Source: Triparma columacea (Eukaryota > Sar > Bolidophyceae > Parmales > Triparmaceae). From it: 64,000 bases of DNA. The DNA lies in assembly GCA_030267965.1 (NCBI GenBank), contig BRYA01000028.1, forward strand, positions 1 to 64,000, read 5' to 3'. The translations under genes were made by a program, and so were the position numbers. Below are positions 1,449-14,267 of the stretch, piece by piece; position 1 is the first letter of the stretch, and every line of letters begins with the position of its first letter. Under the pieces are notes generated by a model that saw only the letters and a program-made list of their open reading frames with translations, was not told where the DNA came from and did not search any database.

Positions 1449-4400
1449 CTAGTTTGATCCCCTTCTGTTATTCTCCTCTTCCATGGGCACAACACTGCTT
1501 ACTTTAGCCTTCCCACCTCCAACCCCTTCCATAAATCTACCATCAGCGCCTCCAACACTTGCTCTTCTAATACCTGCTCTTAAAGCACCTGCTAGACCCC
1601 CCTCAACTTCAGCATCAACACTTGCTCTCCTCACACTCTCTCTCCTTCTAGCATCTCCATCTGCTGGAATGAACTCCTCTGGCACTCTAGCTCTCATTGC
1701 TTCAGTTAACCACTTCGGCTTCTCTTCCTCCCAACTACTCCAATTGGACTCAACCCAACTTTTCACTTCTTCTTCAATAGATTTCCAGTGATGCCTAGAG
1801 TTATTTAAAACTGCATCTGCTCTCGTTTCTTCATTACTACCATGTTGAAATCGCCTTACAGTCAAATCTTTTCCCCTTTCCATACTTACAAATGTTTGCC
1901 TATATTTCTTCTCAATATTGTTGAAGAAAACACCAAACATTATGATATTGCTTGTCATGAAAATATAAAGAAGAGTCAGAACCAAATCAAGTGTATTTTT
2001 ATCTCCCCCTTGCTTCTCATAATTTCTTATGGCAACAGGAAGACTTCCCATAGTAAATACAAATCCAAATGACCAATACATCCCTCCCAGCTCATTTGGA
2101 TGCCTAAACTGTACAATTGAGGTGAAATCTGTGATGACCTTGACCATAATTCTACCAACAATACTTAAGACAAACTCTAAGAAACCTCCAGCAGGTACCC
2201 AATACCAGAAGTCACCTCTCAGGATCTTTATCATTAAATATAAGCCTAAATCCGCTCCAACATATATGTTAACCCATGTCTTACCCATCAATACAAGCAA
2301 CACTATGGTTGCGCACCTAATCAAAAGCATTCCTGCTGAAAAGAAAACCATTGCACCAAATACAAGTATTCTCTTGCTTGTCTGTGCAGGTACATACCCA
2401 TAGAAATCTGGTGTCCAATTTCTGTTATCTGGACTTGTGTCATAATCATAACTGATTGAAGCAGAAATAAATCCTGTAGAGAATGCTGACACTGTAAGTG
2501 AGGCCCAGGCTGCTTTTGAAATAGCTTGTTCTTTTTTCTGTTGTTGCAATGGCCAGTAGTTGAATGATGACTCCAGGAATTGCTTCTGCAAACATCTCAG
2601 TACATTTCATCATGGTCATTTCAAACATTGGATCAACCGCATGGCCAGCCATTTGCTTGTGCCCTGTGGCTATACGATAGGCATCTAGAGCTGGTTTGTA
2701 TCCACTTATTACAGGAAACCACTCCCTGAGCACTCTTTTCCATCCTAATTTTATATATTGTGCGTAGATGAAAATTAGCTGAATGCCCACAGAAACACAC
2801 AAGCTTGCCAATGAAGCTTGAAAGTACCCATACTGTGTCTCGTCCTTCCAATACATGTTTGTGACATACACATCAGTAAGCAAATCAGCAATACTAGTGA
2901 TAGCCCCAACAGTCACTCTTGCCTTCAACCCCCAAGGAACTTCCTCCAAAAGCCTGTAGCTAATTGTCTCAAGCATAGGTCTGAACCACTCATACTCCTC
3001 ATCAAGCTCCTGTAGAGCAGGGAAATTTAAGATGAAGGCATCTACAGCAGCAATCGGCTGAGTATTAATAACCAAGCTCCTTGCTAGTGACTCTCCAATC
3101 TCCCTTCCATCCTTATTCTGCAGCTCAATCGCCTTACCCTCTACCTTTCTCAACTTGCACAGCTTATTCTTGACAACAGCGCCAAGCATTGGTGTGACAA
3201 ACTCATACTTCTCTGCAGTCTGTCTCAGAATATAGTTTCTCCCGATAAATGACCTGACAGCTTCCTCCTTTGTCGTTCCCTTCTTCCTAAAACTTAATGC
3301 AACCAACAGTTGCTCACCCAACAACTGTCCTGTTTGTTTAGGATCTAAACCTGCATAGTCTTGTGTAGTATCATTCACAGCATGTGAAGCAATCAGTGCG
3401 CCTCCATTGTCCAACCCAACACTTGCTCTCCTAATACTTGCTCCCAAAGCACCTGCTAGACCGCCCTCAGCTTCAGCATCAATACTTGCTCTCCTAACAC
3501 TCTCTCTCCTTCTAGCATCTCCATCTGATGGAATGAAATCTACAGGAACTGTAGCCTTTATCCTATCAGTGAACCACTCTGGCTGCTCCTCTTCCCATTT
3601 CGCCCAGTTTGACACAATCCATTTCCTTAACTCTCCTTCAATTGAGACCAATTGATGCCTTGAGTTACCAAAGACTTCGATCTTTATAGCATCATTTTCT
3701 CCTTTTTGGAAATATGCCATTGTAAAATCCTTTGACCTCTGTGTACTCCAGAAGGTGTGCCAGTACTTACTCTCAATGTTCAAAAAGAAGGCAGCAACGC
3801 ACATTGTAGTTATTAGTATGATATAGTTCGCTATAATTGATGCAATATCAATTGCGTTATCATCAACATAAGGTGAAGCTATATATATTGACACTGGTAG
3901 GCTTCCCATTGTCAACACAAGACCAAACAACCAATAAGCTCCCCCAACCTCATTGGAATGTCTAAAATGCGCTATTGAAGTGAAGTCTACAATGATCTTT
4001 ACCACCACTCTCATTACAATACTCGTCACGATCTCTAAGTTACCCCCGGTTGGGAACCAGTACCAGAAGTCTCCTCTCAATATCTTAACCAAAATGTACA
4101 GGCCAAGGTCAGCGCTAATGTAGAGAACGACCCAACGACCTCCCATCAACCCAAGAAGAACTATTGTTGTACACCTTATTAGAAGCATTCCTGCAGTGAA
4201 CAGCAACATGGAAACAAACACTAGCATTCTCTTGCTTGCTTTTGCTGGTATATACCCATAGAAGTCAGGCACTTGCTCTCTCTTCACTGGGTCAGTGTCC
4301 CAGTCATAACTTATAGTTGCAGAGGCAAAGCCTGTTGTAATTGCTGAAACTGCAACTGAAAGCCATGCTGAAGTTCCAACATCTTTTTTGTCACTTGTTA

Positions 4401-7400
4401 CTATAGCCATGAGTTGGATGATCAATCCAGGTATAGCTTCTGCAAACATCTCAGCCCCTTTTATGTATGTATTCTCTACCATTGGCTCAACAGCTTTCCC
4501 TAACTCTTGTTTTCCTCCCTTTGCAATTCTATAAGCATCTACTGCAGGCTTAAACCCAATCAAAATAGGAAACCACTCCCTTAGCACCCTCAACATCCCC
4601 AACTTCCTGTTCTGTACCCAAACAGTAAGCATTTGTATCCCTATTGACACTGCTAAACTTGCCAAAGATGCCTTAAAGTACCCATACTTCTTGACTCTCC
4701 AAAACTTATGTGTCACATACACATCGGTCACCAAATCAAGCATGCTTGTGGCAGCACCAACAGTGACCCTTGCCTTTAAGCCTAACTTAGACTTCATGAA
4801 TACTTTCATAACAATCTCCTCAAGCATGGGCCTTACCCACACTTCTTCATTCATGACTTCTTGCACTTCAGTGAATTGATGTGCCCACTCGTCTACAGCA
4901 TGAGCAGCAGTCAAAGTAGTCAACATGACTGCTGTCATTGCACTCCCTATCTCCCACCCCCTGGCTTCCTCCTCACTCTTATCTTCGCCCTCACTTGTTG
5001 CTCTCCTTTTAAATTTATTCATAACCACAGCATACAGCATAGTTCTTATGAAACCATGCTGCTCTGTAATCTCTTTCAGTGCCCTATTGGCAACAATGAA
5101 TTCCCTCACAACCTCTACCTTACTGTCCCCAACATTCCTTTTCTTCACTCTCTCTGTCAGCTGCTCTCCAAACCTCTTCCCATCCTGTTCCCCTGCTTCT
5201 GTGCTCTTCAGAAGGTTGTCAAAGTAGTAAGCAGCATCAGCTGCTATGCCCAGGTGCTTAATTACACTCTGTTTGCTAGTAGCTTTTCCTAAACCCTTAT
5301 ATCTAGTCATCATTTCAACATTTGTCTTCATCTGGCCAGCGTCAGAGAACCTTACAGCTGTAAGATGCCCTTCCTGTTCAACTGTGATTACTAGTGTCTT
5401 GTTGTTAACTCTGTGAATCACAAGCTGGGATTCAACTCCACTTGAAAGACCCCAGAAGAATGCTGCAACTTCCTTGTGAGATGCTCTCACAGTTATTGAA
5501 GTCTTCCCCCACCCCATTCCCTTCTCTGCCTTTATCAATGTCTGTCCAGACAATGCACTACTGATCTCTTGAGCTCCCTCAATCTCGTCAAAGTGACTTT
5601 CAATCCCTGGTGCCCCCTCAATTGCAATCTCCTCAAACTTTTCAATGATCTGCTGCCTCTTGAAGGCATCAACTTCTATTGGCACTATACTACTTACTCT
5701 AGACTTTCCGCCTCTTACTGCTAAAAGATCTCTTCCATCAGCGCCTCCAACACTTGCTCTCCTAATACTTGCTCCCAAAGCACCTGCTAGACCACCCTCA
5801 GCTTCGGCATCAACACTTGCTCTTCTAACATTCTCTCTCCTTCTAGCATCTCCTGCTCCTGGAATGTATTCAACTGGCACCCTAGCCCTGACAGCCTCAT
5901 CAAACCACTTTGGCTTCTCCTCCTCCCATCTCTCCCAATTTGTCTCTACCCAAGCTTTCACTTCTTCTTCAATTGATTTCCAATGATGCCTTGATGTATT
6001 GAAGACAGTATCAGCCTTCATTCCGTCATCTTGATGATTGTGGTATTTTTTAATTGTTAAACCTTTTCCTGTCTCAGAGCTGAAAAATGTACCCAAGTAA
6101 TTTCTCTCAATGCTCAAGAAAAATACAGCAAACAACACAACTATACATGGTATAAATATTCCAACTACTCTCCATGCCAATTTAAGCCTATCTTCTGCAA
6201 CATCTCCCCTTTCAGCTACTGATATAGCTACAGGAAGACTTCCCATCGTCAATACAATGCCAAATATCCAATACATCCCACCAACTTCATTAGGATGTCT
6301 AAACTGCACAATTGATGTAAAGTCTGTCACCACTTTTACCAACACTCTAGCTAAAATACTGCTAACTATTTCTGCATTGCCACCAAGAGGAATCCAATAC
6401 CAAAAGTCTCCTCTCAAGATCTTCACCAACAAGTATAGACCAAGATCAGCACCGACATAGAGAGAGACCCAACTACCACCAAGTTGCCCAAACACAACTA
6501 TTGTCATGCACCTTATCACAAGCATACATGCACTGAAGAACATCATTACAACAAATATGATAGATCTCTTGGTGGGATTTGCAGGCACATACCCATAGAA
6601 GTCAGGCACTTGCTCTCTTTTCACTGGGTCAGTGTCCCAGTCATAACTGATGGTTGCGGATGAATAGCCTGTTGTCAACGCGGAAACTGAAAGTGAGATC
6701 AAAGCTGCATCCGCAACGTCTTTTCTACTTGTTGCAATAGCCATTAGTTGGATAATCACTCCAGGTATGGCCTCAGCAAACATCTCTATCCCTTTCATGT
6801 AAGTCATCTCTGCCAGAGCATCAATTGCTTGTCCAGCCTCTTGTTTTTCTCCCTTTGCAACCCTGTAAGCATCAACAGCAGGCTTGAATCCGATCAAAAT
6901 AGGAAACCACTCCCTCAGCACTCTCAACATCCCCAACTTCCTGTTCTGTAACCAAACAAAAAGCATCTGAATCCCAATTGATACCATCAAACTTGCCAAA
7001 GATGCCTTAAAGTACCCATACTTCTTATCAATCCAAAACATGTATGTCACATACACATCAGTAAGTAAATCAAAGATAGATGTTACAGCACCAACAGTAA
7101 CTCGAAAAGTCAAACCCCAAGGTGCTGATTTCACCACACCCTTCCCTATCTCCACAAACATGCCCTCCATCCATGGAAACTCCTCAAACAGCTCCCCAAC
7201 AGCCCTGTTTTGCAATCTCCACATATCTACCCCAGCCTCAATCACCTTCCTGCTCTTCAAACAAGGCATCAAGTTGTTCCCAATCACCCTTGCTTCCTTC
7301 TCCTCCACACACTGAAGCTTAGTAGACACAGAGCTGTTGGAGCTAAACTCACAAAGCCTTGCCCTCTTCAGCAAAGTGATAAACCAAGGGTACTTCTTCA

Positions 7401-10400
7401 CAACCTCTCTCAAAGCGACATTCTCGTTGCAAACCTCCTCAACATGTCTCTCTCTGTCCTTCCTTGAGTGTGCTCCTCCAAGTTGTCCTCCATCCCAAAC
7501 CAAATCAGCACCCAAGGCCTCGCCAACTTGCTTGGACATCTCCATTAAATTGACAAGGTCAATAAAGTAGCGTTGTGCTTCAGCAGCCTCATCTAGATAC
7601 CTCTCCAGAATTGATCTCGTTGCCTCCACACTCACAGAGCTACCAAGCTCTACCTTGGTGACAAATTCTACCTTGGTTTCCTTCTCTCCCCTTTTTGTGA
7701 ACTTTATTGCGACTTCTTCAGATGCCCTTTGTGCAGTACTTTTCTGAGTGTTGCTCACAGCATCACTTCTCTCCATATTCTCCATTATTGGCTCCATTAT
7801 AATCACAATAGTATTTTCATCCATCTTGTGCAGTTTCATCACATTCCAGAACTCCCTGTCTCTGTGCTTCATCACATTCCAGAACTCCCTGTCTCTGTGT
7901 ATTCCTCCATGTTTTGACTCCAATTCCTGCCTTCTCCTCACAACCACTTCCCATGTCCCCTTCTTCTCCTCAACTACCCTCTCAACATCTCCTGTTGTTT
8001 CTTGATGGACTCTGCTCTCAAAATCCCAGAAGTAGGCAGCAGCTTCCTCCAAACCTGCTCTAACTGTCACTGTTGTCTTTCCCCATCCCTTTCCCTTGTC
8101 TTCCACCTTAATCCAGGTATCTGACAGGGGGAATGCACCTTTAACCTTTTGTTTGCCATCAACCTCTCGGAACTTGGCATCAAATGTCTCAGTGGACATT
8201 TCTTTGATTTCACCTATTCCACTTATTATCTGGATCCTTGTTGAAGCATCAATCTCTTTGCTCTTGTCAAACTTCTTTCTCAAGTCTGAGACTTGTGCAA
8301 GAAACCTTGGTGCAAGCTTGTTCACAATGGAGGAGAAGAAAATACCACCAAGGTCTACCTTTGTTGTGAAAGTCACTGATGTTTGTGGCACACCTCCAAT
8401 TGGGTCAAGTGGCTCAAACACCCAGACTGTGTGAATCTTCACTAAAATATTCCTGGCGTTTACTGGAAAGTCTTCCTGAAGTTGGTCTGTATCTGTAACA
8501 TCAATGATAACTTTGCCGTCATCTTGCTTGAAGCAAGTCATTTTACTCCGACTATCACGAGGAGCAAACCCAGGGACGCCAAGATCCCTTGTTAGAAAGT
8601 AGTAGCAAGTGTGATTGCTTATGCTGTTGACGCTATACTCTGTGATTCCTCTTTCTTTTGATGTTCTTTTGAACTTTCTAGAATCCGTAAACTCATGCGC
8701 AGCACACTCCTCCACACTCGCATCAACCACAGTAGTTGCAAAACCAGTCCCACTGCTTGCCCCGTCAACATGAACTAGCTTCATCTTGACCCACTCATCA
8801 GGACTCTTCAAATCATCAAAGTTCTCATCCTCCTTGCATTTCTCATAAAACTCCTTCCCCTTCCTGATTGCCTGCTTCTCCTCATCAGTATAATCTTGGT
8901 GTTCATTCTTGATGATGTTGGCAAGAGAGGCCAGTGCAGCTTTATCAAACTCTTCATCCAGCTTGAAGGAGTCCCTCAGTGATGCTATTGTACTTAGTAC
9001 TCGTGGAGTAGATCTGTCAACAATTTTGACTGGAATATACCCCCCTGTGTCCATAAATTGGGTCAATGTAAGTTTACACTGGAGAACACCATTTGAGTCC
9101 TTAATGTTCTTGGCAGTGAGAATGCCACTTGTTGTAGCTTTCACAAGCGTTCCTAGATTTTCCCCATAGTCTACCTGCTTTTTAGCTGGGACAAAGGCCA
9201 CAGACATGTTGCCGTCTTGGTATCCCTTTTGCCACACATATCTCATCACAAACTCTCTTTTGTCGAAAGGGAAGGGAAGTTTCCTTACTGTTACAAACAC
9301 CTTCTCATTAACGCTTCCTTCGTAACTCTTCATTATCTCCAGCCTTGCAGGGTTCCCTTCCTTTCTATCCACTGCCATCCTCTCCCTGCTGCAGTACTCA
9401 AAGAACCAAGCAGCTGCTTCCTCGGCTGAACAGTCGGTGATACACTCAGCTCTACCAAAAGTGAGTGTCTTTTTTCCTTTCTCCTGCTGCTTGTACTTGA
9501 TCTCCATCTTCACTCCCTCATGAGGTGACTTGAGAGGCCCCCATCCTTCTTCATCCTCCCCACCAAAGAGCTCCTCCAACTCCCCAAACACCTTCTTCTG
9601 GTCCTCCTCCAACTCAACACCCTCCCTCATCCTCTCCACCAAGGCCCCCCTGACCTCAGCATCAACTTCCTTCCCGTTCCTCTTGAATTTCTCCTGTAAC
9701 CTGTTGGCCTCAACAAGCTGACTCTTTGCAAGGTAGTCAATAGCTTTGTCTATCACTGCATTTTGAAGCAGGCCTGTGAAATGCAGATTTACTGATTGAA
9801 TACGTGTCACCCTACAGACATTTGGGGCAATCTCATTGAAGAAGTAGACGCCTGTAGTCTCTGCTAGCACAAATCCTTCCTTACTGAGGTCCTTGAAGCC
9901 TCCTCCTGCGTACTCTGTCAGTGGCACAAAAGCTAACATGTATGAAGTCCGGCCATTCTCAAGTTTGACTTCCTTCCACACATACCAATTCTCAAATAGG
10001 CGATTGGTGGCGGCAGGGACCTTTATGCCAGCATGACTGTGCATGCTTCTAGTTCCCTCAAAATCGTTCCTGATCACCCATGGTAAGTTCCCATTATTTT
10101 TTAATTGCTTCTCAGATAGTACAAATGTGTCAAGCAGAAATTCCTCTGCCAATACACTCTTTGCTGACTTGTCCATATTGACCCCAAAGGCTGCCCACAC
10201 CTTGTCCCCGTCTCTCCACAGGAACTTGTCAATGCCCTCCTTCAATGTCCCCTTGATTCTCTTCCCTTTTGTGTGAAGTTCTTTCTCTAGGCTCTCAACC
10301 CTCTCCAACATTGCGTCTTCCTCTCTTGTCAGAGGCGGTGCCCTGGGCATGACCTCCTCCACAAAGTGTCTTGTCTTCCTCTCGTCAATGAGACCAGGCT

Positions 10401-13400
10401 GTCTGAACCGCTTCCTGACCTCCTCCATGATACCCTTTACTGCTGCATACGCAGCCTTGACGTGTCCCTTCTTGGTCCTGCCACTATTGCTGCCTTCAAC
10501 ACTAGATGTCCTGGATCTCGCACTCTTAAAGCTTTTGACTGTGCGAACATCAACTTCTGATTTTGTCTCTGTTGCTCTCTCCTCTGCCTTTAGAGTTCCC
10601 ACCATGGTGACTGCAGTTTGTCCAAACTCAAAGTCAGTGAAGCTGAGCTTGCCCTTAATGACACCTCGCTTGACAGTCTTGGTATTTCTTGAGGCTAGGA
10701 TCTCAACAAGCTTCGCAGTTGCCTCATCAGAAAGATCGTCGTCGTCGAGGGATGTTAATTCCATAATGTTTGTCGATTCGTCAGGAGATACAACTTTGAC
10801 GTCGAGGAGAAATTCGACGAACTTATTCCTGCTGCCGTAGTGCTGCCAATGGACGAGTCTATGAATGACTCCTCCCCCTTCGTCATACTTGTGGAGGGTC
10901 TTCCTCCGGAACTTGCCCTTATCACAATCGGTGAGGAGAAAGGATTTAATCTTGTAACGCTCGTCGTGGAAAACACCGGCGAGCCCTAAAAGTTTCACAT
11001 CGTCGCCGGTGGAAGTGTTGATGAGGCCTTCAACAGCTCCTCTCTCCTCAAGAAGCTTCACAAGCTTGCCTTGCTCGGGTCCAAGAGCTGCGTAATCGAT
11101 ATCAACTTGTCCTTGCGTAGTGGGAGAGGCGTGATTGGGGCTAGAGAGGGTCTGCGGAGAGTCTTTGTTCCTGACGGTGTTGTCAGGATCTAATGTCATG
11201 GACTGAGCGGCAGTGGCGTGGCTGACAGTCGCAAGAACGACTGGCGTGCGGCCGGAAATCGCGCACCCCACAGAAGGCGGTATAGCGCTTATATTGTTCT
11301 CGCCCGCTATTCCACTGTTTAAGGGATCGTCGGAAATTTCGGCGTTGAACTTTTGAAATTCAGGTTGAAGATGAGGATGGCCGGAAATTTCTGGGGGTGG
11401 TTTTGGGGGAATTTTTGGTGAAAAAGGGTCAACAAAAGGTAAAATCTGAATCTCCCTCAGAACGGCTTCCAAGCCCTCCCCTAAACAATCAAAATGCTCT
11501 ACTCTTGGTCTACACGACTACGCAAACTCACCTCGTCTAGCATCCTTGTGATAGCTTCTAGAGACTGCGAAGGGGACAATATTGTTGCAAAAGTGAGAAA
11601 AAGTTACAATGTTTCAACGCGTCCTCCCGCGACTCTCCTGCTCTCTCCTAGAGTACCAAATTGTCCTTTCTCTCTTCCGGCTCTCGACGCACAACTCACC
11701 TCGTCCGGCATCCTCGTGGCGGTTTTTGGAGTCTGCGGTAATGGCAATTATGGTGTTTGTTAGTCAACATGAAGAGATTTCAACGCGTGCTCCTCATTTC
11801 TGTGTAGCATATCAAGCGCCCCACGTGGTCGCCGGAGATGGAACCAATATGGTCGCCGTAGAAGCGCCCCATGAGGTCGCCGCAGACGGAACCCACGCGG
11901 TCGCTGGAGATGGACCCCATGCGGTTGCCACAGACCGGGGCGCGCGTGCGTGCGCCGCGGCCTCCGCCCGTCGAGCTCGACGCCGAGGGCCAGGCCCTCC
12001 GCAAACGGCTCCGCACGTTCCGCATGCAGGCGGTGAGAAAAAACTACAAAGTTTCAACGCATCCTCCCGCGACTCTCCCGCTCTCCCCTGTCTCCCCTGG
12101 AATATTAAAATATATTTTTCTTATCTTGCTCTCAACGCACAACTCACCTCGTCCCGCGTCCTCGTGGCCGTTTTTGGAGTCTGCGGTAATGGCGATTATG
12201 GTGTTTGTTATGTTAGTCAACATGAAGAGATTTCAACGCGTGCTCCTCGTTTCTGTATAGCATATCAAGCGCCCCACGTGGTCGCCGGAGATGGAACCCA
12301 TGCGGTCGCCACAGAAGCGCCCCATCGGTCGCCGTAGAAGCGCCCCATGCGGTCGCTGCAGATGGAACCCAAGCAGTTGCCGGAGACGGATCCCATGCCG
12401 TCGCCGCAGACCGGCGTGTGCGCGCGTGCGCCGCGGCCGCCGCCCGTCGAGCACGACGCCGAGGGCTAGGCCCTCCGCGAACGGCTCCGGGCGTTCTGCA
12501 CGCAGGCGTTGAGAAAAACTACAAGGGTCTCCCCCCCTATGACTCGCTGAATCGAACTTACCTCGGTCTCGTCCAGCGTCCTCGTGAGAGCTTTTAGATT
12601 TAGACACTGCGAAGGGGACAACACAACATTTTGCAAAAGTGAGAAAATATTACAATGTTTCAACGCGTCCTCCCGCGACTCTCCCACTCTCAACTAGAGT
12701 ATTAAATTGTCCTTTCTCTCTTCCGGCTCTCGACGCACAACTCACCTCGTCCGGCATCCTCGTGGCGGTTTTTGGAGTCTGCGGTAATAGCGATTATGGT
12801 GTTTGTTATGTTAGTCAACATGAAGAGATATCAACGCGTGCTCCTCGTTTCTGTGTAGCATATCAAGCGCCCCACGTGGTCGCCGGAGATGGAACCCATG
12901 CGGTCGCCACAGAAGCGCCCAATGCGGTCGCCGCAGACAGAACCCATGCGGTCGCTGGAGATGGATCCCATGCGGTCACCGCAGACCGGTGCGGCGTGTG
13001 CCGCAGCCGTGGCCACAGCCCATCAAGATCGACGCCGACGGCCAGGCACTCCACACAGCTCCACGCCTTCCGCACGCAGGAGATGAGGAAAAATACAAAG
13101 TTTCAACGCTTCCTCCCGTGACTCTCCTGCTCTCCCCTAGAGTATTAAAATGTGTTTTTCTTTTCCACCTCTCAATGCACAACTCACCTTGTCCGGCGTC
13201 CTCATGACCATTTTCAGAGTCTGTAGTAATGGCGATTATGGCGTTCGTTAGTCAAAATGAAAAAGATTTCAACGCGTGCTCCTGACAGCTCCTCGATTCC
13301 GTGTAGAATATCAAGGGCCCCCCTCCTACCACTCCCTGATTCGAACTTACCGTGGTCTTGTCCAGCGTCCTCATGAGAGCTTTTAGATTTAGAGACTGTG

Positions 13401-14267
13401 AAGGGGGCAACACAACACGTTGCAAAAGTGAGCAAAAATTACAAAGCTTCAAGCGTCCTCCCGCGATTCTCCCGCTCTCCCCTAGAGTATTAAAATGCGT
13501 TTTTCTTTTTCGCCTCTCAACGCACAACTCACCTCTTCCGGCGTCCTCATGACCATTTTCAGAGTCTGCGGTAATGGCGATTAAGGCGTATGTTAGTCAA
13601 AATGAAGAGATATCAACGCGTGCTCCTCGTTTCTGTGTAGCATATCAAGCGCCCCACGCGGTTGCTGGAGACAGAACCCATGCGATCGCCGCAGAAGCGC
13701 CCCATGCAGTCACCGCAGACCGGCACACGCGCGCGTGCGCTGCGGCCACAGCCCGTCAAGCTCGACGCCGACGGCCAGGCCCTCCGCGAACAGCTCCGCA
13801 CGTTCCACACGCAGGCAGTGAGAAAAAACTACAAAGTTTCAACGCTTCCTCCCGCGACTCTCCCACTCTCTCCTAGAGTATTAAAATGTATTTTTTCTTA
13901 TCCGGCGCTCAACGCACAACTCACCTCGTCTGGCGTCCTCAAGACCATTTTCAGAGTCTGCGGTAATGGCGATTATGGTGTTTGTTGGTCAAAATGAAAA
14001 AGATTTTCGCGCGTGATCCGGCATGTCGTACTTTTTCCGCGTAGAATACCAAGGTTTTCCACCCCTACAAATCCCTGACACGACTCTCTCACCTTGTCCA
14101 GCGTCCCCACGAGGTCTGTCAATTGACGAAGACGGAGTAACTTGCCTCTCATGGCTTTGATCGGGTACCGAATGGCAGTTATCGGACATCGGGGCGTCAA
14201 CCTGAAGTATATGAGTCTCCCTCACACGCTCTTCACTCCCTCCTCGGGAATCATTTTTCGTGTCCAT
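1449..14267 (-). CDS. Giant START-like / polytopic membrane repeat protein with microexon 5' end (one frameshift)
   Basis: Proposed exons: 14267-14093; nine microexons (see separate entry); then one exon from 11480 to 1449, about 3,508 codons in all. The long exon is open from 11480 to 2446 and continues in another frame from about 2535 to 1449 (see frameshift). START-like lipid-binding domains occur at about 10050-9700, 9525-8960, 8795-8280, 8120-7560 and 5555-5230. Three copies of a polytopic module, with shared motifs DLLTDVYVT, LREWFP, FAEAIPG, DFYGYVPA, ILRGDFWYW and DFTSI, lie at about 7110-6050, 4770-3700 and 2930-1870. A YAALGPEQ/YAGLDPKQ motif recurs near 11090 and 3360. The module loosely recalls XK-related proteins (TDV near the first helix, E..P...IQL later), but I cannot assign a family. 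Role is unknown; membrane lipid sensing or transfer would be an inference. The start at 14267 is the first in-frame ATG after a stop. TTG codons at 11472 and 2591 are not starts. Confidence 0.72.
2525..2545 (-). other. Frameshift at an A6/T6 run inside the giant gene
   Basis: In the third membrane module the conserved reading passes from one frame to another at the T6 run 2532-2537 (A6 on the coding strand). Upstream residues IIQLLAIATTEK and downstream residues AAWASLTVSAFSTGF both align with the other two modules, but lie one base out of register, as if one A were extra. The total of all proposed exons becomes a multiple of three once one base is discounted. This is either a sequencing or assembly indel or a real disabling mutation. 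Confidence 0.85.
7835..7900 (-). repeat. In-frame 33-bp tandem duplication
   Basis: Two adjacent 33-bp copies (7835-7867 and 7868-7900) add an exact 11-residue duplication, HRDREFWNVMK, inside the fourth START-like domain of the giant protein. Identity of the two copies indicates a recent slippage or unequal exchange event that kept the frame. Confidence 0.85.
11532..13957 (-). repeat. Array of nine symmetric microexons (33/45 nt) of the giant gene
   Basis: Exon-like units on the minus strand at 13957-13925, 13565-13533, 13395-13351, 13220-13188, 12778-12746, 12606-12562, 12180-12148, 11732-11700 and 11564-11532. Seven are 33 nt and two are 45 nt. Each is preceded by a CAG acceptor and followed by GTGAG or GTAAG. 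Each begins with two bases completing a codon and ends with one base, so any can be skipped without shifting frame. Peptides are variants of DSKNGHEDAGR; the 45-nt ones read VSKSKSSHEDAGRDR. Synonymous changes (TCT/TCC, GGT/GGC, CAC/CAT) with conserved residues support translation. The upstream exon (14267-14093) ends in the same phase with DAGQ, and the last unit joins in phase to the main exon at 11480 across a 51-bp intron. Confidence 0.65.
11815..13825. repeat. GC-rich short-repeat blocks in the long introns of the microexon array
   Basis: Four GC-rich blocks (about 11815-12030, 12270-12510, 12862-13078, 13645-13825) occupy the four long introns (359-415 nt). The other introns between microexons are about 130-139 nt and lack them. 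Each block holds roughly 24-bp units of the type CCCATGCGGTCGCCGCAGA, followed by a less repetitive GC-rich tail. All six frames are partly open because of composition. One copy has a stop in the most coding-like frame, so I do not call them exons. Confidence 0.6.

Follow-up and report, generated by a model that had tools for sequence, protein, structure and literature searches.

The first 64,000 nucleotides of contig BRYA01000028.1 of Triparma columacea (assembly GCA_030267965.1), referred to here as the window, contain on the minus strand an array of nine microexon units placed between a short first exon and a single giant exon. We consider it probable that this array is the 5' end of one giant subtelomeric gene, and that it is composed of translated microexons that are mostly included in the transcript and whose combined length varies between gene copies. 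The window would hold one member of a subtelomeric giant-gene family with START-like and XK-related modules, in which each unit adds 11-15 residues to a charged, hydrophilic spacer that separates the exon 1 peptide from the START-like modules. The window forms the start of a contig of 85,523 bases (C28) in a genome assembled into 789 contigs with a total of 37.85 Mb, and the locus and family counts given below are lower bounds.

Scanning the minus strand of the window for AG-unit-GTRAG recovered nine units, seven of 33 nucleotides (nt) and two of 45 nt, each with an AG acceptor and a GTGAG or GTAAG donor, and each free of stop codons in phase 1-1, as the original prediction, made from the letters alone, had described them. 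The coding part of exon 1 (14093-14267, minus strand, as are all parts of the gene described here) begins with the ATG at 14267, encodes 58 amino acids (MDTKNDSRGG...SIDRPRGDAGQ) and ends in phase 1, with a tail that by eye resembles a unit. The class A units, all of 33 nt, are unit 1 (13925-13957, DSENGLEDARR), unit 2 (13533-13565, DSENGHEDAGR), unit 4 (13188-13220, DSENGHEDAGQ), unit 5 (12746-12778, DSKNRHEDAGR), unit 7 (12148-12180, DSKNGHEDAGR) and unit 8 (11700-11732, DSKNRHEDAGR). Units 3 (13351-13395, VSKSKSSHEDAGQDH) and 6 (12562-12606, VSKSKSSHEDAGRDR) are class B units of 45 nt, and unit 9 (11532-11564, VSRSYHKDARR) is a short class B unit of 33 nt. The 107 residues of the window spacer include 28 acidic, 21 basic and 14 hydrophobic residues, and because of this composition the spacer is probably disordered.

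The array is also present elsewhere in the same genome. DNA of the array region matches at least 40 contigs, its own included (best 40 of 196 candidates scored), and we analyzed a set of 21 loci, consisting of the window and the 20 best DNA-matching loci out of 39 other contigs. All 20 further loci contain the array, and the number of bounded units per locus ranges from 4 to 11 across the set when only matches of at least 20 bits are counted, weaker matches, exon 1 tails among them, being excluded. AG and GTRAG bounds are found on 168 of the 170 matches, and 167 of these 168 bounded units have lengths divisible by three (119 of 33 nt, 41 of 45 nt, five of 39 nt and two of 27 nt); with all window units in phase 1-1, any subset of units keeps the frame, which had also been predicted. 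The sole exception is a 37-nt unit in locus L027, for which an alternative donor 4 nt upstream gives 33 nt, and the two 27-nt picks (L010 and L021; 20.9-23.6 bits) score weakly and could instead derive from the end of a different first exon. By contrast, the lengths of the 147 introns between units are spread evenly over the three remainders modulo 3 (51, 52 and 44). In the claimed frame none of 137 distinct units contains a stop codon; 128 of the 137 contain one in one of the other sense frames, and none does in the third. Fifteen of the 20 loci outside the window have a phase-1 open reading frame (ORF) of the exon 1 type ahead of their array, although it is short in L017 and L022.

A 33-place class A pattern with up to three mismatches has 371 matches genome-wide and its reversed control has none, and chance repeats are ruled out by the length rule together with the reversed-pattern and frame controls. 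Five of six extra loci gave 23 picks, of which 19 are 33 or 45 nt long, two are 23-nt exon 1 tails and two are 37-nt picks of the same kind as the L027 exception; two more matches there lack a donor. The sixth (L049, on contig C71) gave no match above 40 bits in a stretch whose location was guessed, so that the array may lie outside it.

The units carry a signature of constraint on the amino acid sequence. Computed pairwise over distinct units and resampled over loci, the ratio of non-synonymous to synonymous differences (pN/pS) in the claimed frame is 0.33 for class A (85 haplotypes; resampling 0.25-0.45) and 0.46 for class B (36 haplotypes; resampling 0.35-0.68), close to the median ratio of non-synonymous to synonymous substitutions (dN/dS) of 0.39 at the start of the giant exon (first 1,131-1,500 nt, 13 loci). 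Flanking introns give pN/pS values of 0.82-1.09 and exon 1 a value of 0.68 (13 loci), and for class A the other sense frames give 1.09 and 1.11 and two antisense frames 1.59 and 0.90. The observed class A value is reached by two of 150 column shuffles (in a subset of 36), and class A heterozygosity at the first, second and third codon positions is 0.149, 0.099 and 0.240, respectively. When one- and two-step changes are counted along a spanning tree, class B has 19 synonymous and 18 non-synonymous ones, a ratio of about 0.31 (p 0.0008). Because the length rule, the frame constraint and natural fusions that keep the frame all point the same way, the units are almost certainly translated; here too the prediction gains support, both from unit lengths set against intron lengths and from pN/pS in the claimed frame.

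The natural fusions are units without a donor. The two such matches in the 21-locus set (L018 and L027) run into the next exon, and donor-less units stay in the claimed frame for 127 (L018), 549 (L027), 177 (L050) and 18 (L054) codons from the unit start, the frames in L027, L050 and L054 being open to the end of the sequence examined, which in L054 is 18 codons only. By eye, the residues following the fused unit are related in L027 and L050. A metagenomic protein (P0002) passes from ADSKNG directly into giant-exon sequence, and a class-B-like acceptor opens directly into the giant-exon frame in L010 and L016. The first class A unit of L018 continues a frame that is open for 198 codons upstream, yet an AG still precedes the unit.

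Arrays are linked to more than one kind of giant exon. In L012, L018, L022 and L023 the giant exons are more distant (34-55% identity), and that of L027 has no match to the first 700 residues; because the giant exons of these loci are divergent, the array is a module common to several subfamilies. One of these is likely to comprise L027, L050, L051 and L054, with a divergent first unit and, in L027, L050 and L054, the run-on class A unit. The divergent first unit reads ESENDHGEARR in L027 and is similar in L051 and L054.

The two unit classes differ in their splice signals. Of 109 class A units, 108 carry the donor GTGAGT and 94 have a branch site resembling TGACTAAC; of 56 class B units, short forms included, 41 carry the donor GTAAGT and none has a branch site of this type. 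Array introns are 104-549 nt long (n=147), and their lengths follow the units that they separate: 53 of 55 A-B introns are 123-150 nt, 47 of 50 A-A introns are 331-549 nt, and B-A introns form two groups, of 104-130 nt (15 introns) and 244-454 nt (27 introns). Over positions +7 to +66 the introns are 83% identical within class A and 82% within class B, and the intron following exon 1 is 67% identical to those following class B units and 60% identical to those following class A units. A repeat scan of the window found GC-rich 24-nt tandem repeats within two long A-A introns (11814-11935 and 12865-12986) and one long B-A intron (12267-12410). The copy number of these repeats may, as judged by eye, set the intron length classes, and they are perhaps exchange points.

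Two ways in which introns could be coding were considered and rejected. Hidden exons in the long introns are not indicated, since the longest open stretches are of similar size in several frames on both strands (71 long introns), and a plus-strand ORF at 11597-12337 is taken to be a by-product of long-intron composition. Retention of A-B introns as coding sequence is at odds with their lengths, which fall into the three remainders modulo 3 as 20, 21 and 14; proteins P0014-P0017 read through one such intron, but these intron-spanning frames are discounted because a gene caller would select such open frames.

Exon 1 and the giant exon join the array in phase 1, as predicted, but the giant exon probably starts at 11390 and not at 11480, 90 nt from the position first proposed. 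A phase-1 acceptor before AAATTTC lies 130-148 nt past the last unit in 13 of the 21 loci, and in the window it defines a giant exon that begins with EISGHPH and extends over 2446-11390 to the stop of the frame. Position 11480 is a possible phase-1 acceptor; however, it would give a 51-nt intron, against a minimum of 104 nt among the 147 array introns, and of the 13 loci that share the conserved acceptor, nine have a giant-exon frame that closes before the equivalent position is reached. The segment that it would add (11391-11480) is probably intron.

The giant frame, given as 3,010 residues, lies in an open stretch at 2446-11517, and from 11390 onward it comprises more than 2,900 residues. 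The Pfam family PF09815 (XK-related) matches three stretches of the protein with an E value of 2.7e-8 and 33.6 bits against a cut-off of 24.8, the best being 6427-7098, and the protein is predicted to lie in a membrane; phmmer found no related solved chain for the XK-related region. A START-like domain, one of the soluble modules, is placed at 8953-9534. PF01852 is weakly matched in four of 13 aligned paralog domains (best E value 0.014) and does not match the window's own copy, and a profile search with this domain found no related solved chain. By eye, a motif of the form RRESVRRASVDAEAEGGLAGA...RRASVG recurs after the membrane modules, at the tails of the XK-related modules, and is seen also in proteins P0001-P0004; we take it to resemble kinase A sites. 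No relatives were found among phage records at megablast sensitivity, and none were confirmed in viral contigs by a search sensitive to close relatives only.

The giant gene belongs to a large family. A 333-residue stretch of the giant exon is found at at least 121 loci on 118 contigs (best 121 of 538 candidates scored), 120 of which are stop-free in the matched stretch, with identities of 76-86% (the window itself excepted), and open frames in the family reach lengths of up to 4,185 residues. Each of the 64 scored minus-strand copies points toward the start of its contig and terminates no more than 13,036 bases from it, and three contigs (C467, C285 and C126) carry one copy at each end, both facing outward. 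Of 20 gene-facing contig ends examined, ten carry CCCTAA tracts, three more consist of N and seven are without a tract; among the tract-bearing ends listed, 15 of 43 have a scored copy pointing at them from a distance of 4.1-12.2 kb. The window itself begins with CCCCAACCCC-like sequence and lacks a clean telomere tract there. Contig ends alone are weak evidence, since repeats can break assemblies, and it is the telomere tracts together with the constant orientation toward contig ends that make a subtelomeric position the best reading.

Three contigs (C70, 75.5 kb; C71, 84.3 kb; C75, 67.7 kb) have telomere-type tracts at both ends, and together with the contigs that bear a family copy at each end they suggest that very small chromosomes may make up part of the genome. 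The main text of a published study reports N50 values of 63.5-83.2 kbp for five of six Triparma assemblies (PMC10328945). Contigs C327 and C340 have a CACCCTTTA-type satellite at the end opposite the telomere tract.

These observations suggest how the array may have grown and how it varies. Because units of one class recur together with their introns, the units are probably the product of successive duplications of an exon-intron cassette. Among the 122 class A units with flanks, the nearest relative lies in the same locus for 15, against 4.5 expected, which points to some local duplication and more exchange between loci. Most likely the units are mostly included and recombination between arrays makes the spacer differ in length from copy to copy. 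Exchange between chromosome ends would be the motor of this variation, and phase symmetry would allow units to be gained and lost without breaking the very long downstream frame.

Several observations weigh against this interpretation. One antisense frame of class A has a pN/pS of 0.48, and one- and two-step changes in class A comprise 33 synonymous and 65 non-synonymous ones on the spanning tree (about 0.72, p 0.14); the class A constraint is thus clear over family history and modest for recent changes. The frame signal of class B is weak, with control values of 1.79 and 0.55 in the sense frames and 0.45, 1.90 and 0.75 in the antisense frames and 19 of 150 column shuffles reaching the observed value. 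Class B heterozygosity by codon position is 0.046, 0.106 and 0.106, the second and third positions being equally variable, and the frame could not be settled from class B by itself. Variation in classes A and B is 0.163 and 0.086 in the exons, 0.203 and 0.268 in the preceding 30 nt, and 0.032 and 0.064 in the following 12 nt, so that conservation is strongest on the donor side of the intron and somewhat stronger in the exons than ahead of them. Introns of class A and class B are 57% identical to each other over +7 to +66, compared with 56% after shuffling, and these values do not show that the two classes and their introns share one origin. Finally, the frame in the window stops at 2446, and XK-related sequence with RRASV motifs continues in an overlapping frame (1449-2606, minus strand); the window copy may be frameshifted, misassembled or interrupted by an unrecognized intron.

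The main rival to fixed inclusion, which we regard as most likely, is combinatorial splicing, in which each gene includes varying subsets of its units; nine independent units in the window could then yield up to 512 forms. This is possible, but we think it rather unlikely. The splice signals of classes A and B differ and could be regulated apart, and exon skipping is reported in schistosome micro-exon genes in passages of two papers (PMC4015677, PMC4350168). The nine units of the window and those of the paralogs are all symmetric, as combinatorial splicing would have them; however, paralogs that differ in unit number between 4 and 11 require symmetry anyway, so that it is not by itself a pointer to alternative splicing. 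Short introns favor intron definition, making exon skipping rare, and the array introns, at 104-549 nt, are short. The class A splice sites are nearly uniform, and the window contains no inverted repeats of 20 nt or more with both arms inside the array, the one 27-nt pair found (70% complementarity) joining unit 6 to the giant exon. No unit-to-unit junction occurs in the matches examined from 5.8 billion predicted proteins, whose frames either extend into introns or belong to the giant exon; because the intron-reading matches look genomic, the missing junctions say nothing against splicing.

It is very improbable that the array is unused, its units being decayed repeats and transcripts starting downstream or skipping the region. 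The pN/pS of exon 1 is rather high and recent class A changes are near neutral, as decay would predict, but the length rule, the frame constraint, the in-frame fusions and the conserved phase-1 exon 1 argue against it. Least probable of all is that mobile, introner-like introns cut a coding repeat into microexons, for although many similar introns are present in one genome (83% identity within class A and 82% within class B), units and introns are repeated jointly in two fixed classes in the arrays compared, and the units are themselves repeats. Introner elements are near-identical introns in many unrelated genes, and the comparison made here covers the introns of the arrays.

The original prediction knew of no described family with this arrangement, but it is not without precedent, because the micro-exon genes (MEGs) of Schistosoma mansoni and the gene for SmVAL6 (VAL-6) share serial, small, symmetrical exons. 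Passages of two papers (PMC4015677, PMC4350168) describe several MEG families that have very small, symmetrical exons in series, whose skipping leaves the reading frame intact, and that encode small, apparently secreted products, mostly with a signal peptide, in which microexons make up as much as 75% of the coding sequence. The exons of the array are likewise serial and symmetrical with lengths divisible by three. The differences from MEGs are that units supply 107 of more than 3,000 residues, that no hydrophobic stretch is visible by eye in exon 1 (MDTKNDSRGGSEERVRETH), that a single motif is repeated from unit to unit, and that the genes are oriented toward contig ends in an unrelated organism; moreover, skipping has been shown in MEGs, whereas for the array it is a hypothesis. 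SmVAL6, as described in the same passages (PMC4015677, PMC4350168), resembles the gene in the window in combining ordinary large exons with a run of small symmetrical ones, but there the run of small exons comes after the large exons, which encode another protein family, and a single gene is described.

Other features of the family have different counterparts. The main text of Ban et al. 2023 (PMC10328945) reports an expansion of START genes in the Parmales, with up to 141 in Tetraparma gracilis and some of them multi-domain, and the large number of genes with START-like modules found here resembles it. None of the terms XK-related, intron, splic-, telomer- and chromosome appears in that main text, and the microexon arrays and the chromosome-end position go beyond its description (PMC10328945). 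With XK-related (XKR) proteins the giant protein shares the three-stretch PF09815 match above cut-off, but unlike them it carries several XK-related stretches in one chain, following START-like modules. Subtelomeric variant families such as var and VSG have many telomere-adjacent copies, diversifying selection on the variable part and expression of one copy at a time. Many copies face contig ends here as well, but there is no diversifying selection in the giant-exon start (dN/dS 0.39) or in the units (0.33-0.46). Among listings of open-licence papers we found no published description of such a microexon-array family in algae. Serial symmetric microexons are already known from schistosomes, and it is the scale and the chromosome-end place that are unusual here.

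A more far-reaching view, which we consider doubtful, is that more than 100 chromosome-end genes each carry an interchangeable bank of microexons, and that recombination between ends together with combinatorial splicing would equip giant membrane proteins that handle lipids with a vast range of N-termini, which would serve as a recognition or tuning system. Parmalean RNA-seq exists and was used in the study of Ban et al. (main text, PMC10328945). The 33-nt exons with clean signals, present in one genome in hundreds of natural variants, constitute a data set on the birth of microexons, the keeping of phase and possible exon choice, and the family may link recombination at chromosome ends to variation in protein length.

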